A stretch of DNA of 37,156 nucleotides from a virus: the IMG/VR virus record IMGVR_UViG_3300005820_000005, positions 1 to 37,156 of that record. The stretch is one strand, 5' to 3'. Within the stretch, counting starts at the first letter, position 1. Every line of letters begins with the position of its first letter. Under the pieces are notes generated by a model. That model saw nothing but the letters and a program-made list of their open reading frames with translations. It had not been told where the DNA came from and did not search any database. Both the position numbers and the translations under genes were made by a program. This document shows, piece by piece, positions 5,918 to 35,198 of the stretch.

Positions 5918-7240
5918 TTAATTATGATAGTAAATCGTTATATCTTCGTTTTGCACAATAGTTGTACAATCAAGAGTATTATTAGCTACGTTACCTTTTC
6001 CAGAAATCTCGCTAAACTCTCCTACGCCGTCAACTGTTTTCATATAGATATCTGCTTCTTCACTGATAGCATTAGGCAATCCAATCAAATCTCCAATTCC
6101 TACTTCAACATGCTTAGTAGCAAGAAGTCCATCAGATATATTAACATTAGTTACGGTTACGAATGCCTTTACTCCTTGTGTAGTAGCACCATCAGCTATA
6201 GCTATTGCGTCAGTCTGTCCAGTAGTTCCATCAGCAAGCGTTCCAGTTATAGTAACAACTCCAGTAGCTCCAGCATCTCCAGTTGTTGTAATATTTCTAC
6301 CGAAGTCAGGTTCTGTATTAGCTAAATCTACACCCGATTTATCTTGTGATGCCCCTGTTCCTTCTGTAGAAACAAGAATATAATCAACATCAGCTGCATC
6401 AACATCCATTAGATGTAATACCCAATTTTTCCCTACACCAGCAGCATCATCAACATAGCCCTGGGTAACAAGTTTATTATTGTCCCCAGTACCAGTAGAA
6501 AAACTCGCTATGGCAGTTTCCACTTCATTAATCGTAAATTTAATTTGATTATCCGTTCCAAAACTAATCAAATTGTGAGTATCCCTGCCAACAGTTAAAG
6601 CTGTATTAGTTAAACTTGTAATATCGGTATTAGCTCCACAAGCTGCGACGTTAGTCCCAATAACTAAACCTAAATCAGTCCTAACTTCCGACATTGTTCT
6701 TATAGAGTAAGTATCTTCTGCGGTTATCTTAATCATACTTGCTTCAACATAACCTAAAGCAGCCAAATTAGTTAAACCAGTATCCAATGGTTGATAAGTT
6801 CCAGATATATCAGGAATATCACCAGCTGCTAAAACTTCATAGCTTGGCAATCCACCACTGACAGTTCTTAAAAACTTGTTTGTAGCGCCCGCTTCTGATG
6901 CAAGTCTTGTCAATACACCATCAGCAGCTCTATAATATATATCACCCGTTCCATCACTACCAAGTGTCATAGTAACGCCATTTATAACTACTCCTGTTGA
7001 TAACGTTCCGGTTGTTACAGTTCCCAATGTAGTTATACTTGCGCTACCAGCAATAGGCGAATATATGGTGCTTATTGCAACTTCATTAACATAGTAATCC
7101 TTGCCACTGGGTACATTTACGTCTCCATCCATATCCGTTGTTGGGCCGATATTAACTGCACTAAATGCTGCAAAAACACTTGTAGGCACACTCATAAATA
7201 TGAGTGAAACCACCATTAAAAATATAATTAATTTCTTCAT
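5918..7240 (-). CDS. Tail fibre protein with signal peptide
   Basis: 440 residues, ATG preceded by AGAGGTGAG. The first 24 residues (MKKLIIFLMVVSLIFMS...SVFA) form a clear Sec signal peptide. Then a Gly/Thr-rich fibre shaft starting with DGDVNVPSGKDYYVNEVAIS, which is paralogous to the start of the downstream fibre. The last 140 residues or so (from PDFGRNITTTG to IYYHN) are paralogous to the C-terminus of the protein at 7604-8926. No enzyme motif. Likely a trimeric fibre subunit. Confidence 0.7.
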   Translation of the reverse strand: MKKLIIFLMVVSLIFMSVPTSVFAAFSAVNIGPTTDMDGDVNVPSGKDYYVNEVAISTIYSPIAGSASITTLGTVTTGTLSTGVVINGVTMTLGSDGTGDIYYRAADGVLTRLASEAGATNKFLRTVSGGLPSYEVLAAGDIPDISGTYQPLDTGLTNLAALGYVEASMIKITAEDTYSIRTMSEVRTDLGLVIGTNVAACGANTDITSLTNTALTVGRDTHNLISFGTDNQIKFTINEVETAIASFSTGTGDNNKLVTQGYVDDAAGVGKNWVLHLMDVDAADVDYILVSTEGTGASQDKSGVDLANTEPDFGRNITTTGDAGATGVVTITGTLADGTTGQTDAIAIADGATTQGVKAFVTVTNVNISDGLLATKHVEVGIGDLIGLPNAISEEADIYMKTVDGVGEFSEISGKGNVANNTLDCTTIVQNEDITIYYHN

Positions 7241-7603: not shown

Positions 7604-8926
7604 TTATATGGTTAATACGGATTTATACCTTATTTCCATATCCTCATAATTCTCTATAGTTGCACAATCTACGGTATGGTAAGTGGTATTCACCTTACCG
7701 GATAATTCGCTTGTTTTATCTTCGGTATTTACTTTCTTTTTAAATACATCGGCAGCCGAAGTTATTGGATTAGATAATCCTATCTTGTCAGAAAACCCTA
7801 CTGTTACCGTATCAGAAGCAGATACTCCGGCAGGAATATTAATATTAGTAACCACATCAAAGGCCTTTACGCCATAAGCGGTTGAACCTGCTATAATAGG
7901 GATTACATCCGTATCTTCTGTCCCCCTTACCAATCCTGTAATAGTTACATTCCCCGATGGAGCAGCCACATTGGTAGTCGTTATACTCGTATTCCTGGCA
8001 TAATCAGGATTGGTAATATCCTCTGTAATATTTTGTTCTGAACCTGTCCCTGTGATAGCTGCGTGAATACCATCCTCATCAGCCGGTAATAAATCCTGAA
8101 AAGACTGAGATATTACCCTTGAAAATGTATGAAATATAAAAGTCCTTTTATCGGTAACAGAATCAACTACGCCACCAGAGATAACTACCGTTGCAAGCTG
8201 AATTGAATTAGTCGGTATAGTCCCGGTCGTATAACTTATTACCCCGGTTTGAGTGAGATAAATTTTATAGGTATCATCCTCTGTCGGCAGGGTATAAGTT
8301 TGTGCTACAGATAAGTATATTCTAATATTATTAATATACGCATATCCGCTCGCAATATCGATTTTACTGTCAGCTCCGGCATTATCGGTAACCTCTAATT
8401 TATTCCCCTTATAGACAACACCATTCCCGAACAGTTCAGTAAATCCCTCACATAAAGAAGATGAGGGCTCTTGATTTAATACATATATCTGGAAAGTAAC
8501 TGCTCCCTCTACGGCACTATTAGGCAAGTGGACCCTAACCATAATTTTACGGTAACAATCGGCTGGTATGTTTCCTATGTCAAGCGGTAGATTTAATCCT
8601 ACAGGTTGAAATTCAGTCATATCATCATCAGTTTCACCAGAGGAATCTCCACCATTCGCGCCATCATGAATGGTAAGGGATTTTATTTCTACCCAATGCT
8701 GTTTGGTGATATTTTTGACTTCATCCCCGTTATCATCCCTGGCACTTATCTTGACAGACGTCATTCTAGAGGAACTTTTTACCATGCCCTTATCGTTCCA
8801 AACGTGATATTCTGTCCCTGCTTCCAATAATAGGAAAGTCCCTGCATCACCATTGCCATAATTTATCGCAGATACTTCTTCGCTATCATCAGCATTATAT
8901 ATTTTTGGATTCGGGTCTACTGCCAT
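7604..8926 (-). CDS. Baseplate/upper fibre protein
   Basis: 440 residues with no signal peptide; GAGGTGATAAT precedes the ATG. The N-terminal half (residues 1-170) is a beta-rich domain. The middle (about 170-280: VVYKGNKLEVTDNAG..., then a 'valid up to boundary conditions' fibre-type stretch ending in TDKRTFIFHTF) resembles phage proteins that anchor fibres. The C-terminal 140 residues are paralogous to those of 5918-7240 (shared blocks GVKAF, TNxNI, IGL, SGK, DC-T). The only large protein in this block that is not exported-looking, so it may be the attachment point. Confidence 0.6.
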   Translation of the reverse strand: MAVDPNPKIYNADDSEEVSAINYGNGDAGTFLLLEAGTEYHVWNDKGMVKSSSRMTSVKISARDDNGDEVKNITKQHWVEIKSLTIHDGANGGDSSGETDDDMTEFQPVGLNLPLDIGNIPADCYRKIMVRVHLPNSAVEGAVTFQIYVLNQEPSSSLCEGFTELFGNGVVYKGNKLEVTDNAGADSKIDIASGYAYINNIRIYLSVAQTYTLPTEDDTYKIYLTQTGVISYTTGTIPTNSIQLATVVISGGVVDSVTDKRTFIFHTFSRVISQSFQDLLPADEDGIHAAITGTGSEQNITEDITNPDYARNTSITTTNVAAPSGNVTITGLVRGTEDTDVIPIIAGSTAYGVKAFDVVTNINIPAGVSASDTVTVGFSDKIGLSNPITSAADVFKKKVNTEDKTSELSGKVNTTYHTVDCATIENYEDMEIRYKSVLTI

Positions 8927-25909: not shown

Positions 25910-27439
25910 TTACCAATCTTGTTCGGTACTTGGTCGTTTCCCGGCACCCTTCCCTTCAATTATAGACTTCGACTCTTCTAGAGCAGTTACTGCGCCATAA
26001 CTGGCCATAGCCAAACTAATAGCTAAATCGATTTTTTTAGTTCCCGATTTCTTTACAATACGCCAACCCCGGGAAGAATAAATTACCTTACAGTTAATCA
26101 GGGATAGCCTGATTTCTTCCGATTCATAGAAATTTATCCCCTGGCTTTTAATCAGATTAAAAAGACATTGGGAGAAGGCTATACAATTCCCCTGGGTTTG
26201 AGGCAATTCCACCATATTGATTTTTTCTTTTTTGAGATCCTGGCTCAATTGGATAGCCTGGTAGGGATCAAAATAAACCCCTTGAATATCATAAAGTTCA
26301 GATAATTCGATCAGGTATCTTTTAACATCATCAAATTGCAGTTCTTCTGTTTTTAGGGGAACATAAACTTTATGATCCACAGAAAAAATTTTATTATTAA
26401 TCTTTCCTACGCCACAAATAGCGGTATAGTCATTTCTATATCCCACATCAAGCCCTAACCATATAGGAATTTTTATCTTCGGCCTTTTGATTAATTTATA
26501 ATCAATGCAAGCCCTAAAATCTTCATCAGTTATAAAAGAATCTTCTTCACTCACCCATAAATTTTTATGCAATCGCTTGAATAGATTCGGTCTCATTCCC
26601 GGTTTATGCTCCTGGCTATTCAAATATTTTTCAGTCACGAAGGAAGAAGGATTCGCTTCTTCCCCTTGTTTGATATAGAAATAACTTTCCGGAGTATTGC
26701 CTTTTTTTGATTCCTTAACCAGGTCCCACAAGATCCCTTCTTCTGACCTTCCAGCGGTAGAAGTTATCAGAATTAGAGGGTACTTATATGTCGGGGATAG
26801 CTGCAACTCGTCAAAAAAGAATCTTAAAGAATCTGTGTCGAAAGAGGCCAATTCATCAATACAAATTAATAGGCAATTAAGTCCGGCACTTGACCGGAAA
26901 GAAGAACTTAGGCATCTTAAAATCGTTCCGGTTTTAATATTCTCGATATAATCGGCATGGATCCGGCACTTCCTATTAAGCTTCGGGTTCTTCTCGATCA
27001 TGGAAACAATTTTCCGGTAAGTAATAAAATTAGATTGGTCCTTGCTATTGGAACAAATATAAATCTCGCCGGGCTCCTGGCAGATCAAGAACCAACTCAA
27101 GACTATTGCCGAAAAGGTAGACTTACCGTTTTTTTTAGCCAAACTTACGAGAATCAATCGAGGTCTGTTCTTATAAAAGCAATCTGTAAAAACCTCTCGT
27201 TCCCAGTCCTCAAGCATGATCAGCTTTTGTCTTTTCTCAGGTAGATAAACCTCTTTTTCTGCGAATTGAATTATATCCTCTTTGTATTTCAGGAAAGAAA
27301 AGCCTCTATCCCTGCCAACCTTCAACTTTTCCGGCCACCTTAATTTTAAATTGTCAAGTTTCCTCTTCTTGGATTCCGGAGTCTTAGCTTGATAACTTGA
27401 CTTTGGTCGAAACTTTACATTCTTAGCGATATGAACCAC
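25910..27439 (-). CDS. terL: Terminase large subunit (HK97 type)
   Basis: 509 residues. Walker A SLAKKNGKST at about 99-108, Walker B LLICIDE at about 190-196, coupling motif ITSTAG near 225, nuclease Asp331 in GLDVGYRND and a late KKIDLAISLAMA block. Motor that packages DNA into the head and cuts concatemers. GTG start at 27439 touches its purine-rich site (AGAGGG) and is uncertain; an ATC nearer the right spacing aligns with the start of the duplicated mini-gene. The first 33 codons or so are repeated at 28075-28172. Confidence 0.92.
   Translation of the reverse strand: MVHIAKNVKFRPKSSYQAKTPESKKRKLDNLKLRWPEKLKVGRDRGFSFLKYKEDIIQFAEKEVYLPEKRQKLIMLEDWEREVFTDCFYKNRPRLILVSLAKKNGKSTFSAIVLSWFLICQEPGEIYICSNSKDQSNFITYRKIVSMIEKNPKLNRKCRIHADYIENIKTGTILRCLSSSFRSSAGLNCLLICIDELASFDTDSLRFFFDELQLSPTYKYPLILITSTAGRSEEGILWDLVKESKKGNTPESYFYIKQGEEANPSSFVTEKYLNSQEHKPGMRPNLFKRLHKNLWVSEEDSFITDEDFRACIDYKLIKRPKIKIPIWLGLDVGYRNDYTAICGVGKINNKIFSVDHKVYVPLKTEELQFDDVKRYLIELSELYDIQGVYFDPYQAIQLSQDLKKEKINMVELPQTQGNCIAFSQCLFNLIKSQGINFYESEEIRLSLINCKVIYSSRGWRIVKKSGTKKIDLAISLAMASYGAVTALEESKSIIEGKGAGKRPSTEQDW
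27327..27424 (-). repeat. Duplicated terL 5' segment, copy A (in terL)
   Basis: 98 bases within the terL start, about 90 identical to 28075-28172 in the same orientation. Confidence 0.9.
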
Positions 27440-28246: not shown

Positions 28247-28260
28247 CTGCCCGGAGGCAG
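28247..28260 (-). ncRNA. Array-terminal hairpin A
   Basis: Minus strand CTGCC-TCCG-GGCAG directly follows the array unit GGTAA plus GGAA. C(TCCG)G is a UNCG-type tetraloop if transcribed. Confidence 0.6.
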
Positions 28261-28264
28261 TTCC

Positions 28265-28349
28265 TTACCAAACCTTACCTCACCGCACTTGACCTTACCA
28301 TACCAAACCTTACCTTACCATACCCCACCGGACCCCACCCCACCAAACC
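28265..28349 (-). repeat. GGTNN pentamer array A (17 units)
   Basis: On the minus strand GGT recurs every five bases for 17 successive units without an insertion or deletion; 16 are GGT and one is AGT. The two following bases vary freely. The last unit is GGTAA, joined to hairpin A. It lies in the 3' region of the 175-residue gene and before the mini-gene. Translating it in any frame gives only low-complexity peptide. Confidence 0.85.
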
Positions 28350-28363
28350 CAATCATATTTTTA

Positions 28364-28891
28364 TTATTTAAATTCCAAGATCTCAAATCGACCAAAATGC
28401 GGTCTCCAATCGCCAATTCCTACAAATTTTCCAGCATATACAACTATCTCTTTCAGGATATCCTTTAGCATTGAATCATCCATAACTAACAAATTAAATT
28501 CTGCTTCCCAACCTTTTTTAAATGCCGGTCTGCTTCTGAGAATTTGATTCCTTTGAATCTTGACAAATTCCTGATGATTATAATCAAAAGTTTTCTTACC
28601 CAAAGGAATTTTATCAGGTTCAACTTCAATTGTAGCATTTATCATATCTTTATAAGTTTTTCCCATTCTACCTTTAATTTTAAAATTTACTGCTGCCTTT
28701 ACCAAACCAGCCCTTAATTGTTTACTGGGAATATAGCAGCCTATCTCATCATCAAAATATAAAGATTCTTCTGCTTCCTTAGAATAATCAACTTCACCGG
28801 ATTTTTGTCTTGAATTGTCTTCTTTAAAAGGTCTTTTATGCTGCAGATAATCGGCAATTCCCTTAATTTTTACCTTAACCTCATAAGCCAT
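28364..28891 (-). CDS. Unrecognised 175-residue protein flanked by GGTNN arrays
   Basis: ATG at 28891 (MAYEVKVKIKGIADYLQHKR) has AAAGGAAAA upstream; a TTG 11 codons earlier lacks a site. Basic, alpha/beta protein. Two stretches, YIPSKQLRAGLVKAA at about 65-80 and VGIGDWRPHFGRFEI near the C-terminus, recall the helix and glycine-rich loop of RAMP/Cas7-type RNA-binding folds; this is a resemblance by eye only. GGTNN arrays lie directly before and after it, so it is the best candidate to bind them. Conserved-looking phage protein, function unknown. Confidence 0.65.
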   Translation of the reverse strand: MAYEVKVKIKGIADYLQHKRPFKEDNSRQKSGEVDYSKEAEESLYFDDEIGCYIPSKQLRAGLVKAAVNFKIKGRMGKTYKDMINATIEVEPDKIPLGKKTFDYNHQEFVKIQRNQILRSRPAFKKGWEAEFNLLVMDDSMLKDILKEIVVYAGKFVGIGDWRPHFGRFEILEFK

Positions 28892-28936
28892 TTTATTTTT
28901 TCCTTTCTTATTATTTTTGGACAAGTTTTATGACTT

Positions 28937-28966
28937 CGACCCTATCAAACCACACCTGACCAAATT
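28937..28966 (-). repeat. Short degenerate GGTNN run (6 units)
   Basis: Six pentamers, four of them GGT and two GAT/AAT, in the 5' region of the 175-residue gene, right after hairpin B. Confidence 0.6.
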
Positions 28967-28967
28967 C

Positions 28968-28981
28968 CTACTTGATAGTAG
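28968..28981 (-). ncRNA. Array-terminal hairpin B
   Basis: Minus strand CTACT-ATCA-AGTAG after GGTAA plus GCAA. Compared with hairpins A and C, two stem pairs have changed on both sides (G-C to A-T and C-G to T-A), keeping the stem. Confidence 0.65.
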
Positions 28982-28985
28982 TTGC

Positions 28986-29065
28986 TTACCAAACCGCACC
29001 TTATCCAACCATACCTTAACTCGCCTTACTGTACCGCACCTGACCGTATCATACCTTACCCTACC
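28986..29065 (-). repeat. GGTNN pentamer array B (16 units)
   Basis: Sixteen in-phase pentamers; eleven GGT, the rest one-base variants (GAT, GTT, GGC, AGT). Begins after three weaker units that link it to hairpin C and ends in GGTAA and hairpin B. Confidence 0.85.
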
Positions 29066-29081
29066 AAATTAAATCTCAACC

Positions 29082-29095
29082 CTGCCCAGAGGCAG
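29082..29095 (-). ncRNA. Array-terminal hairpin C
   Basis: Minus strand CTGCC-TCTG-GGCAG after GGTAA plus GCGA; same stem as hairpin A. Confidence 0.6.
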
Positions 29096-29099
29096 TCGC

Positions 29100-29174
29100 T
29101 TACCATATCGCACCCCACTGGACCATACCCGACCCCACCGTACCACACCAATCCTAACCTTACCCTACCACACC
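29100..29174 (-). repeat. GGTNN pentamer array C (15 units)
   Basis: Fifteen in-phase pentamers, twelve GGT. The first units form the end of the coding region of the nuclease gene (its C-terminal YGVVG), so the array begins within that gene. Confidence 0.85.
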
Positions 29175-29552
29175 GTAAAAATATTTCTTTAATAGTTTCC
29201 TGAATTTCGGATTATTCAGATCGCCGTTAACTACATTATTAAAAATCCTTAAACAGTTTACTCTGTTTTCCCGGCAAATTTTATCTTTCTTTGAATCTCG
29301 AATTTTTTGTTTTTCGTCTGAAGCGTGATACCAACCGCCAGGCTCAATAATGCAAACTAATTTATTGTGTCTAAAAATAGAAATATCAGCGTGAGAATTG
29401 TTATTCCAGAATGATTTTAGCCACCTATTATCAGGCTCCGGGAATAGCTTTTTTAATGGTATTTTTGTTTCAAATTTCAACCTGGGGAATTTATCTATTA
29501 AATGGGAATACAGTTTATTTATTATAATTTTATCATCTTGGATCTTTAACAT
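29160..29552 (-). CDS. PD-(D/E)XK-type nuclease (Vsr/DUF559-like)
   Basis: 130 residues. HADISIFRHNKLVCIIEPGGWYH with Asp56 and Glu70-x-Gly72, then KDKICRENRVNCLRIFN, is the core of Vsr/DUF559/DUF2726-type nucleases: a metal-binding Asp, an Asp/Glu on the next strand, then a helix and a strand. Probably a nicking endonuclease or resolvase. AAAGGAAAA ribosome site. Its last codons are part of array C. Confidence 0.65.
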   Translation of the reverse strand: MLKIQDDKIIINKLYSHLIDKFPRLKFETKIPLKKLFPEPDNRWLKSFWNNNSHADISIFRHNKLVCIIEPGGWYHASDEKQKIRDSKKDKICRENRVNCLRIFNNVVNGDLNNPKFRKLLKKYFYGVVG

Positions 29553-29571: not shown

Positions 29572-30150
29572 CTATATCCCGAATCCGTTAATAACCTCTT
29601 TGTTTTCATCATCATCAATCCCTATATACCTGAAAGTTACTCTAATATTCCGGTGATTCAACAGATTAGAGATCCTTTCGATACTGATCCCCTGCATGCG
29701 CAGATGATACCCAAAGGTCTTTCTCAATGTGTGTCCGCCGACTTTGCATTTAAGGCCTGTATCTTTACACCATTTGTTTATTAGCTGATAGGCTCTAATC
29801 CTGGTGATTGGTTTATTCTCCTTTGATTTCTCGTTAGTAAATAGGTATTGATCCAGGTCAAATATATCGGTCTTTTTAAGATAATAATTTATAGCTTCTT
29901 TAATCTGCTTATTAAAGTGCACCTTCCTGGTCTTTCCGGTCTTTTGTTCTTTGATATCCAAATAATCTTTTAACTCCCCCCGGTTATTTTTGACATCTCC
30001 AAGTCTCAAAGATAATATATCCCCGATCCTCAGGCCGGAGTTAATACCAAAAACGAATAACAAATAATCCCTCGGATTTTTTTGCCGGTATAGGTTCCCC
30101 CTGATCTGTTTTATTCGATTTTCTGACCTTATTGGCTCTACGATATTCAT
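29572..30150 (-). CDS. int: Tyrosine recombinase (integrase), catalytic domain only
   Basis: 192 residues from the ATG at 30150 (MNIVEPIRSENRIKQ), GGGGG nine bases upstream. All active-site residues are present: Arg41 (SGLRIGD), Lys70/73, His140-x-x-Arg143 (GGHTLRKTF), His166 (LLNHRNI) and Tyr175 (TFRYIG). No arm-binding or SAM-like N-terminal domain, as in small Xer-like or transposon recombinases. It may need a partner or simply bind core sites. Likely makes the phage temperate; att candidates lie directly upstream. Confidence 0.88.
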   Translation of the reverse strand: MNIVEPIRSENRIKQIRGNLYRQKNPRDYLLFVFGINSGLRIGDILSLRLGDVKNNRGELKDYLDIKEQKTGKTRKVHFNKQIKEAINYYLKKTDIFDLDQYLFTNEKSKENKPITRIRAYQLINKWCKDTGLKCKVGGHTLRKTFGYHLRMQGISIERISNLLNHRNIRVTFRYIGIDDDENKEVINGFGI

Positions 30151-30383
30151 ACTAAATAACCCCCTTATTTTGTTTAATCTATCTAACCAGATTATAACAT
30201 AGGTTAAACAAAAAAGCAAGTATCCTGTCAAAACGAATTCGAATATTCTATAATCCTTATTCTGTAAGGCTTTCATAATTATACATAATAACCCTTGTGT
30301 TAAATACAACTCTTCCCAGATCATGCCGGGAAACGGGGGAATAGGAAGAAAATGTAACCAGGCAAAAATATCGAAATTCACCT

Positions 30384-31051: not shown

Positions 31052-31486
31052 TTATTCCCACCAGGAAATTAATCCGCTCCATTTCTCCATTTCTTTATAG
31101 CTTTCTATTTCCTCAAAATCTACTCCCAGATCATCACATAAAAATTTAATCATTTCGCCATTAGCCTTATCCCTTGCATATTTATCCGGGATTATGAATT
31201 TTAACCTGGCGAATTCCTCCGGATAGTATTCTTTAAACCGCCTTAATTTTGTTTTATCTGATTTTCTAAACCAGCCTTTAACTTCAACCCAGCGATTGAC
31301 TACTGCCAAAAAGAAATCTGGTTTATAAAATCTGCTGCCACGCTTAATCTCCTTAAATTCAAATTCCATATATTCATAAATATACAATTCGCCGATGTAT
31401 TTATAATACCGGGCTACATTCGCTTCCATTTTTGACCTAAAAAATTGCTTTAGATCTTCCCTATAACCGCCTTTGGCTATGTGCAT
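31052..31486 (-). CDS. PD-(D/E)XK endonuclease (resolvase type)
   Basis: 144 residues. RSKMEANVARYYKYIG (Glu21), YKPDFFL (Asp57) and VEVKGW (Glu68, Lys70) form the canonical E-PD-ExK centre, like T7 endonuclease I-type or phage PDDEXK resolvases. Probably resolves branches or frees ends in replication. TAATG overlap with the HNH gene. Confidence 0.75.
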   Translation of the reverse strand: MHIAKGGYREDLKQFFRSKMEANVARYYKYIGELYIYEYMEFEFKEIKRGSRFYKPDFFLAVVNRWVEVKGWFRKSDKTKLRRFKEYYPEEFARLKFIIPDKYARDKANGEMIKFLCDDLGVDFEEIESYKEMEKWSGLISWWE

Positions 31487-32073
31487 TATATTTTCCCCGA
31501 TAATTTTAATGCTGGTTGAAAAGAGTTCTTTAATTTGTTACTCTTAATTCTATTTTCTTTTTCAGTTAATAGTCTTAAATTAGTTAACGCCCAACAACGC
31601 TTAAAATCTGGATTGTTAGGTGTATTATAATTAAATGCAGATATGGGAATAATGTGATCAATATGCAACCTGCCATCTAAAAAATCTTGCCATACATAAC
31701 CCCGAGGCAATGTATATTTTAATCGTTTTATTAAATCAACTTTTGTATATCCAACGAGAATTTCCCATTTTCTATAATTTTTCTTACCTTTTAAAGATCT
31801 GCGTATTTTACTACTTATATCATTATCAAGCCTAATTTTTAAATCCATTCTACGTTTCATATTTACATATTGCCTTCTTTGTTCAGTATGATTTCTACGA
31901 TATTGTTTTCTTCGTTTTGATATTTTTTCACTATTTATTTTATTATATATTTTTTGCTGTTTTAATATTCTTTCACGATTATCTTTATAATATTTCTTCC
32001 TTTTTTTTAATATTCTTTCACGATTTTTAATATACCAATTTCTATCTTGTTTTTTTTCTTTTTCAGTTTTCAT
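31486..32073 (-). CDS. HNH endonuclease with basic N-terminus
   Basis: 195 residues. The first 80 are strongly basic and repetitive (RERILKKRKKYYKDNRERIL), DNA-contacting. Residues about 140-190 contain LHIDHIIPISAF and LTNLRLLTEKENRIKSNK, the HNH fold. GGAGG ribosome site. A free-standing (possibly homing) endonuclease. Confidence 0.8.
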   Translation of the reverse strand: MKTEKEKKQDRNWYIKNRERILKKRKKYYKDNRERILKQQKIYNKINSEKISKRRKQYRRNHTEQRRQYVNMKRRMDLKIRLDNDISSKIRRSLKGKKNYRKWEILVGYTKVDLIKRLKYTLPRGYVWQDFLDGRLHIDHIIPISAFNYNTPNNPDFKRCWALTNLRLLTEKENRIKSNKLKNSFQPALKLSGKI

Positions 32074-33202: not shown

Positions 33203-33973
33203 TTATCTCCTTTCTTCATAGCCCGGGTGATCATTTATATAAAACTTTTTTGCCTGCATTAACCAAGCCCAAACTAATTTTTCTATTTTACCTTCATATT
33301 TTTCTTTTATCATTTTTTTGTATTTTTCTGGATCATCTAAAAACTTTGTTTTCCAAAGATCATAGAATAGATAATTAATCGTTAACATAGGAAAAGCCCC
33401 CTGGTACATTTTTAATCTCCAATCATATAATCCCCACCAACATTTATCTTCAAAACTAAATTCAAGGGGGTCTTTCCCTTCTTTTAGTTTTTTGTTAGAA
33501 GAGTCTACGGACTCTTTTTGTATAGTTTCTTTTGTAAGAGTTTCTTTAGTTTCTTTTGTGGTTACCCCCTTTGGTAACTTTTTCTTACCCCCTTTGGTAA
33601 CTTCAGTTACCCCCTTTGGTAACTTTAAAACCCCCTTTGGTAACTTTTTCTTATGATGAGAAGTTACCCCCTTTGGTAACTTTATCCATTTGTCATAGTC
33701 TTTTTGAAAAGCTAAATTTTTGCCATTTTTTATAATTAGATTTTTCTGTATTAATATTTTTATAGTTCTACTAATATGAGTTTCTGCTATCCCGGTCATA
33801 TCTGATATTTGGGTATTAGTGATCCAATCTTCTTTTTTATGCCAGCCATAAGTTTTCCTAAAAATAGCCCACAATACTTGACTTTCATAACTGGACAAAT
33901 GTATTTTGGCCAATGCTTCAACTATTTTATTGGCTATATCGACGTGACCGTTTTCCTTTTGAGGATTAGCCAT
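33203..33973 (-). CDS. Phage replication initiator (O-like)
   Basis: 256 residues. Residues 1-95 are the phage replication protein O winged-helix domain (DIANKIVEALAKIHLSSYES, WHKKEDWITNTQISDMTG). A low-complexity region (about 97-150) repeats KLPKGVT because it contains the iterons. The C-terminal 90 residues would contact the host helicase or a loader. No helicase or polymerase gene is seen in the window, so the phage relies on host replication. Confidence 0.85.
   Translation of the reverse strand: MANPQKENGHVDIANKIVEALAKIHLSSYESQVLWAIFRKTYGWHKKEDWITNTQISDMTGIAETHISRTIKILIQKNLIIKNGKNLAFQKDYDKWIKLPKGVTSHHKKKLPKGVLKLPKGVTEVTKGGKKKLPKGVTTKETKETLTKETIQKESVDSSNKKLKEGKDPLEFSFEDKCWWGLYDWRLKMYQGAFPMLTINYLFYDLWKTKFLDDPEKYKKMIKEKYEGKIEKLVWAWLMQAKKFYINDHPGYEERR
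33561..33680. repeat. Five origin-type iterons inside the O gene
   Basis: Core ACCCCCTTTGGTAAC recurs with ACCCCC starting at 33564, 33587, 33609, 33630 and 33666 (spacing 23, 22, 21, 36). Full units are GTTACCCCCTTTGGTAAC, with inverted GTTACC/GGTAAC ends. As in lambda, the binding sites for the initiator are inside its own gene. Confidence 0.85.
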
Positions 33974-34457: not shown

Positions 34458-35198
34458 TTATTTATAGTTAGGAAATTCTTTGATTTCTTCCGGATAGATA
34501 TTTTTTAGGCTATCTTTTAGGTAAACTGGGATATCATTATCCCGGCAAAATTTAACTATGCTTTCGATCCAATGCCATCTTGGAGTAATCCGGCCTTTTC
34601 TTTTACCGGTTTCAGCCCCCAGGATAACCCAGTCTAGGAATATTAAATCCAGGGGATTTATTTGTTCGAGTATAGGCTCGATAGATACGAAATAAAGATA
34701 CTTTCCGTTCAGGCTAAGATCCCTTAGTTTTTTGATATGCAATATTCCATTGGCCAGATCCTTGTTTTCGGTAATGGTAAAGCCCAGCCAGGCCTTTGCC
34801 GGGAATTCTAGACGATGGTAGATATAGGGATATTTCGTTAGGAATTGGAATATATGTTGAGGATATCCCTTTATCCTCTTGAATGTTTTGAAAATCCAGT
34901 CTTTTTTCCAGAATCGGATCTCACTCATTGATCCCACGAATATTTTTTGGGTTTTTTGGGGAAATTTTTTATCAAATTGTGCTTCCAAAAATGTAGGCCT
35001 AAAATTTTTTAACTCCGATAGGTGATCGCCGGTCCAGGCCCAGGTAGGATGTTTTTTCCAATAATGATTAAATTCAATTTCGTACATTTGTCTCCAACGG
35101 AATTTTGCTATTTTTCGGGCATAACAATATTCACAATGATTTAAACATCCCCAAACCGGATTCCAGGTGGCACTACACCACCCGATTTTATTTTTCAT
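34458..35198 (-). CDS. Phage Gp37/Gp68 (DUF5131) radical-SAM-type protein
   Basis: 246 residues. WNPVWGCLNHCEYCYARK gives Cys18-x3-Cys22-x2-Cys25, the iron-sulfur signature of radical SAM enzymes. FVGSMSEIRFW, FLTKYP and WVILGAETGKRKG are hallmarks of the DUF5131 family common in phages. The substrate is unknown; a base or tRNA modification has been proposed for relatives. Confidence 0.8.
   Translation of the reverse strand: MKNKIGWCSATWNPVWGCLNHCEYCYARKIAKFRWRQMYEIEFNHYWKKHPTWAWTGDHLSELKNFRPTFLEAQFDKKFPQKTQKIFVGSMSEIRFWKKDWIFKTFKRIKGYPQHIFQFLTKYPYIYHRLEFPAKAWLGFTITENKDLANGILHIKKLRDLSLNGKYLYFVSIEPILEQINPLDLIFLDWVILGAETGKRKGRITPRWHWIESIVKFCRDNDIPVYLKDSLKNIYPEEIKEFPNYK

Follow-up and report, generated by a model that had tools for sequence, protein, structure and literature searches.

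Organization of the locus and its GGTNN arrays

The window analysed here, an IMG/VR viral record of 37,156 bases, carries on its minus strand a locus that comprises, in coding order, a candidate vap gene, the GGTNN arrays vrRNA1 and vrRNA2, a short mini-array, the vipr gene and the array vrRNA3 (Table 1). A tyrosine integrase gene lies upstream of the locus (29572-30381) and a large terminase gene downstream (25910-27439).

Table 1 Features of the locus in window coordinates.
Feature	Position	Strand	Basis or remark
vap candidate, 130 aa	29160..29552	-	array 1 begins within its last codons
Predicted target site inside vap for sister guide L129/G003	29334..29360	-	17/18 NN letters at 1-nt skip; skip = wobble
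vrRNA1 variable region, 15 GGTNN units (12 exact GGT)	29100..29174	-	sequence
vrRNA1 tail hairpin CTGCC-TCTG-GGCAG, after GCGA	29082..29095	-	sequence; compensatory changes (25 clade tails)
vrRNA2 variable region, 16 GGTNN units (11 exact GGT)	28986..29065	-	sequence
vrRNA2 tail hairpin CTACT-ATCA-AGTAG, after GCAA	28968..28981	-	sequence; compensatory changes (25 clade tails)
Mini-array, 5 units GGTCA GGTGT GGTTT GATAG GGTCG	28937..28961	-	in vipr leader; nearly invariant across sister phages
Predicted leader hairpin, 5' arm = mini-array	28916..28964	-	-15 kcal/mol, z -4.0, 0/200 shuffles
vipr, 175-aa RAMP protein	28364..28891	-	phmmer, profile, Foldseek
vrRNA3 variable region, 17 GGTNN units (16 exact GGT)	28265..28349	-	sequence
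vrRNA3 tail hairpin CTGCC-TCCG-GGCAG, after GGAA	28247..28260	-	sequence; compensatory changes (25 clade tails)

The first-pass annotation of this DNA had described three in-phase minus-strand arrays of 17, 16 and 15 units without indels, each closed by GGTAA, four bases and a hairpin. Both the sequence and shuffling bear this description out. The arrays score 48, whereas 60 dinucleotide shuffles of the whole window never exceeded 9 and 500 of the local kilobase never exceeded 12. The hairpins are of 5 bp throughout and follow the four-base words GCGA, GCAA or GGAA. The statement that GGT recurs every five bases is right in phase, unit counts and hairpins and slightly idealised for two arrays, in which 11 and 12 units are exact; the non-exact units retain two of the three triplet letters. 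Counting three arrays only, the annotation had overlooked the fourth, the five-unit mini-array. It had also set the arrays apart from CRISPR and from simple microsatellites, and in both respects we agree: repeats of the CRISPR type are absent, no cas genes were found among the proteins scanned, and the arrays are not a microsatellite since their two variable bases are diverse while the phase is fixed. Between the arrays of sister phages, NN is wholly different.

In the 25 clade tails, a GNRA sequence immediately precedes the hairpin. Twenty-three of these tails are fully or almost fully paired, with loops of 3-7, and each of the exceptions has a single broken pair if the 5-bp register is kept fixed. 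Compensatory double changes were observed at all five base pairs, pair 3 for example being G-C in 18 tails, A-T in 4 and C-G in 2. This covariation is good evidence for a hairpin formed in RNA and, by extension, for arrays that would be transcribed as separate guide RNAs. Whole vrRNAs did not fold better than shuffled sequences, which suits a guide that is unstructured apart from its small tail, and an Rfam search returned no family match.

Elsewhere in the window, a ~22-base repeat with the palindrome GTTACC-CCCTTT-GGTAAC recurs about five times at 33561-33680, within a replication-O-like gene (33203-33973); these repeats are probably iterons of a phage origin in the style of lambda. An endonuclease-VII-like ORF (31486-32073) carries an imperfect 45-base tandem repeat at 31914-32026, and a DUF5131 protein (34458-35198) is in addition recognised by the PADLOC candidate-defence models PDC-M41B and PDC-M30B (E ~1e-28). 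Two adjoining ORFs, 5918-7240 and 7604-8926, have the identical length of 440 aa each and are possibly a duplicated gene.

The Vipr protein, the candidate Vap and their relatives

VIPR was described in a 2026 preprint as a CRISPR relative that phages use against rival phages, with a Vipr protein of ~20 kD, an accessory vap gene and vrRNAs as its parts (PMC13142463). A vrRNA consists of 9-16 GGY/NN repeats followed by an invariable structured 3' tail, and its NN dinucleotides pair with dsDNA with a one-base skip (PMC13142463). Vipr itself is a small RAMP with an RRM core and a G-loop, and the reference systems are those of phage SUSP1 and of a Pseudomonas fulva prophage (PMC13142463). The element in our window is a member of this kind. 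The first-pass annotation had known of no described element of this sort; it had in fact been described already, as the vrRNA of VIPR systems (PMC13142463).

The 175-aa protein matches SUSP1 Vipr (PDB 36pp, chain D) with an E value of 6.4e-14 in a single-sequence phmmer search and of 1.5e-30 in a profile search. Its AlphaFold2 model (pLDDT 90.6) has Csm3/Cas7 RAMP subunits as best Foldseek matches. The C-terminal glycine loop reads GIGDWRPHFGRFE, and G158, R163 and G167 are invariant in 38 homologues. A tblastn search with Vipr gave matches in 130 phage records, the identity to Felixounavirus-type proteins being 27-31%. By sequence homology, the protein is Vipr, a small filament-type RAMP homologous to SUSP1 Vipr; homology and fold together uphold the earlier suggestion that this protein is the partner of the arrays.

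For the 130-aa protein, weak Pfam matches were obtained among family members (DUF2726 at 4e-5, DUF559 at 0.0075). The AF2 model (pLDDT 87.7) resembles BstEII, I-Bth0305I and Vsr, and residues D56, E70, H76, D79 and D86 are invariant across 7 relatives. The model predicts a Vsr-like PD-(D/E)XK nuclease. Its gene accompanies vipr in 8 of 8 clade phages, and the family was found only in this subclade. The predicted nuclease is likely to be Vap, an assignment made by position and fold only. Seven VIPR types have been distinguished, with nuclease or helicase vaps in types III-V (PMC13142463), and a nuclease-type vap points to these types, solely by analogy.

IMG/VR was scanned for seven exact GGTNN units, which yielded at least 120 viral stretches. 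Among the matches listed, a Vipr homologue lies near 36 of the 50 loci with diverse NN and near 2 of the 70 with low diversity (Fisher p 9e-17), and many array loci show several tandem arrays with a clade-specific terminator word. Six close relatives with Vipr proteins 74-96% identical, together with a further phage (L197) found through vap, carry vipr, vap, 3-5 arrays and the same tail type. The first-pass annotation had named absence of the arrays from all close relatives with the same neighbouring genes as a refutation; they are present in all 7 relatives found with vipr and vap. In our array scan of the SUSP1 vipr region, GGY/NN arrays flank the gene, and in 8 of 10 cellular Vipr loci a GGYNN array lies directly behind it. 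The nearest Vipr proteins from cellular MAGs are those of Aenigmatarchaeota (L171), Schekmanbacteria (L172) and Omnitrophota (L173), with 38-45% identity to Vipr of this phage; each of the three loci has one array of 10-29 GGYNN units directly behind vipr. Two other loci, L018 (2216-3406) and L072, hold guide batteries of 13 and 18 tandem arrays, respectively, with a fixed spacer word between arrays.

Targets and codon signature of the guides

To search for targets, 25 guides from this phage and six sisters were compared with both strands of their seven contigs (189 kb) at skips of 0, 1 and 2 bases. Order-shuffled guides served as the null (1000 shuffles), with a cut-off of p 0.005, and one guide was cut at a 4-nt irregularity in its array. 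With a skip of 1, five of the 25 guides reached p<0.005, with 21/22, 20/22, 17/18, 18/20 and 32/44 matching letters; the binomial probability of this outcome is near 2e-7. The fifth match is much weaker than the other four. On the same seven contigs, none of the 25 guides was significant at skips 0 or 2, and a skip of 3 finds only the arrays themselves. All five matches are in the sense orientation of the target gene, with NN at codon positions 1 and 2 and the skip at the wobble position. Units that were added after the first scan matched too, extending 16/16 to 21/22 in one guide and 15/16 to 17/18 in another.

The targets lie in vap of two clade phages, one of them the phage studied here, and in genes for a head-morphogenesis protein, a UDP-glucose dehydrogenase and a cytidylyltransferase. 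The site in this phage's vap covers the codons LVCIIEPGG, and the two vap-directed guides address adjoining stretches of the conserved EPGGWYH segment, which probably belongs to the active site of the nuclease. The guide at L129 3358-3436 has a 4-base irregularity in the middle of its array: the part before it matches vap of this phage, and the part past it decodes as [FL]YH[FL][KN][DE], which would extend this vap motif in a sister outside the present sample.

For the three guides of this phage itself, no target was found in the sister contigs (p ~0.97). A seed scan of IMG/VR with nine-unit seeds gave 0 matches for vrRNA1 and vrRNA2 and three for vrRNA3, all of which failed beyond the seed (21/34); a seed made of the final eight vrRNA1 units gave 13 matches at chance level, the best of which (22/30) falls in an ORF with an HTH domain. 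The NNx-codon reading of vrRNA1 is V[SR][KN]Y[LF]VTGR[IM]PGA[IM][KN], a peptide that hints at excisionase/HTH_17 proteins. When 196 arrays were compared with all unrelated contigs, targets were hardly above background.

Guides that copy coding DNA minus its wobble base should have NN resembling codon positions 1 and 2, which can be examined without any target. For the 399 NN of the clade, the codon-1/2 model beats five other phase and strand models by at least 49 log units (1980 of 2000 bootstraps). The margin is still 25 log units after dropping the five target-matched guides and the last units, and the 48 NN of this phage alone give 6.4 log units. Base composition alone is insufficient to account for the signature, because the fit worsens by 77 log units when the two NN letters are swapped, and a permutation of the second letters between units yields z 4.6. 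A few clade guides conform to the antisense model, which is what targets on the opposite strand would give. When 34 other Vipr loci were pooled (2009 NN), codon positions 1-2 were ahead by ~190, and in 22 of the 34 they gave the best fit, in sense or antisense. Tested blind in this clade, the non-contiguous code holds in three ways, namely by targets found only at a 1-nt skip, by the wobble position of the skip and by the target-free codon signature. With this signature, functional guides can be recognised simply and decoded into short peptide motifs of the attacked gene.

These data bear on other explanations of the arrays. Binding sites of the trp RNA-binding attenuation protein (TRAP) consist of GAG/UAG NN repeats, with mtrB as the protein's gene, and the first-pass annotation had likened the arrays to such sites for ring or filament proteins. 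In a strict form of this reading, a ring or filament would bind GGU, the spacers would carry no information and the phage would regulate its own mRNAs. The fixed triplet with its 2-nt spacer, the position of the arrays between genes in the coding direction and the presence of a Vipr-type RNA-binding protein agree with such a role, and the leader of vipr could hold one such site in its invariant mini-array. What stands of the proposal is an RNA array at the period of an oligomeric RNA-binding protein. The free dinucleotides, however, carry information in the manner of a non-contiguous guide: they are non-random and show the codon-position-1/2 signature, and they have significant 1-nt-skip targets in sister phages. 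In addition, the partner protein is a RAMP and not TRAP, and we regard TRAP-like regulation as very improbable.

Simple-repeat expansion, or a mutagenic (diversity-generating) process acting on a GGTAA template, could produce such arrays without any guide function. The terminal units are often GGTAA, and 70 of the 120 pattern matches listed are of low diversity, both in favour of this origin. High NN diversity, the fixed phase, the conserved tails, the linkage to Vipr and the codon signature all count against it, and no reverse transcriptase was found among the scanned neighbouring genes. For this clade, target matches together with the codon signature refute it, unless they fail in further genomes. 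We give this origin practically no weight. Equally slight is the probability of a role as two-tier G-quadruplexes, in which the G2N3 repeats of RNA or DNA would block polymerases or helicases. A GG every five bases does fit two-quartet quadruplexes, but the T, the codon signature, the covarying hairpin tail and the linked RAMP gene are all unnecessary for such a structure.

Proposed function and comparison with known systems

We hold with high confidence that the locus is a VIPR system of a phage or prophage and that its arrays are guide RNAs; the imperfect units in vrRNA1 and vrRNA2 count against this reading, as does the fruitless target search for the phage's own three guides. In the proposed mechanism, each array with its hairpin tail would be one guide RNA (vrRNA), coated by Vipr with one subunit per GGTNN unit such that GGT is kept unpaired and NN exposed. 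Together, the NN pairs would recognise dsDNA, each pair skipping one base; within coding sequences, they would read codon positions 1 and 2 and pass over the wobble base. Once bound, the complex probably represses a rival phage's gene at transcription, and the nuclease-like Vap may cut this gene. By analogy with the published systems, RNP assembly, DNA binding and repression would also take place at this locus (PMC13142463). From the vap-directed guides, we infer that sister phages fight one another through vap.

The mini-array, with NN being CA, GT, TT, variable and CG, is present in the vipr leader of this phage and four sisters and absent from the relatives L130 and L131; a pattern search found it upstream of vipr in this subclade only. 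Its pairwise differences amount to 0-3 of 25 bases, compared to 19-51% at fourfold sites of vipr, whereas the guides share nothing. The leader hairpin is predicted in the four sisters as well, with z from -3.1 to -1.8. Within the phage's own locus (±2.5 kb), no consistent target site of the mini-array was found. We favour the speculation that it is a leader element bound by Vipr. Its hairpin might be autoregulatory, with free Vipr binding GGU and thereby shutting or switching vipr, while sister guides might be aimed at active-site codons of vap. Jointly, these two readings are tentative, and we lean somewhat against both holding. If true, the former would represent feedback control of a guide-RNA system and the latter a VIPR-versus-VIPR arms race.

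VIPR is very recent and so far rests on a single preprint. The present locus and its seven sisters provide an independent dataset from uncultivated phages far from the two studied systems, and offer a candidate nuclease-type Vap as well as a leader element that could show how such a system is controlled.

In comparison to TRAP sites, the arrays share the conserved triplet, the free 2-nt spacer and the many repeats; they differ in the triplet, GGU, in the unrelated protein, a RAMP, and in that the spacer bases here hold the specificity. With class 1 CRISPR effectors, the locus has in common the Csm3/Cas7 fold matched by the model of the 175-aa protein and the proposed periodic protein contacts on a guide RNA. 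It has neither CRISPR repeats and spacers nor a cas operon, and its period is 5 nt with three of five bases unread, whereas CRISPR has a 6-nt period with one base flipped. VIPR has been proposed as a forerunner of CRISPR (PMC13142463).

The closest likeness is to the published VIPR systems, with a homologous Vipr, vipr-flanking GGY/NN arrays of similar length, a structured 3' tail and a 1-nt skip that falls on the wobble base. Unlike in SUSP1, the tail here is a simple 5-bp hairpin after GNRA, and the candidate vap encodes a predicted Vsr-like nuclease, while the vap product in type II, to which SUSP1 belongs, is a predicted DNA-binding protein (PMC13142463). Further differences are the arrays of 16-17 units, up to 22 in sisters, which reach or exceed the stated 9-16, and the fixed five-unit mini-array in the vipr leader. 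New here are the codon signature, the sister-versus-sister targeting of vap, the fixed mini-array and the fact that the code is confirmed independently in a further phage clade.
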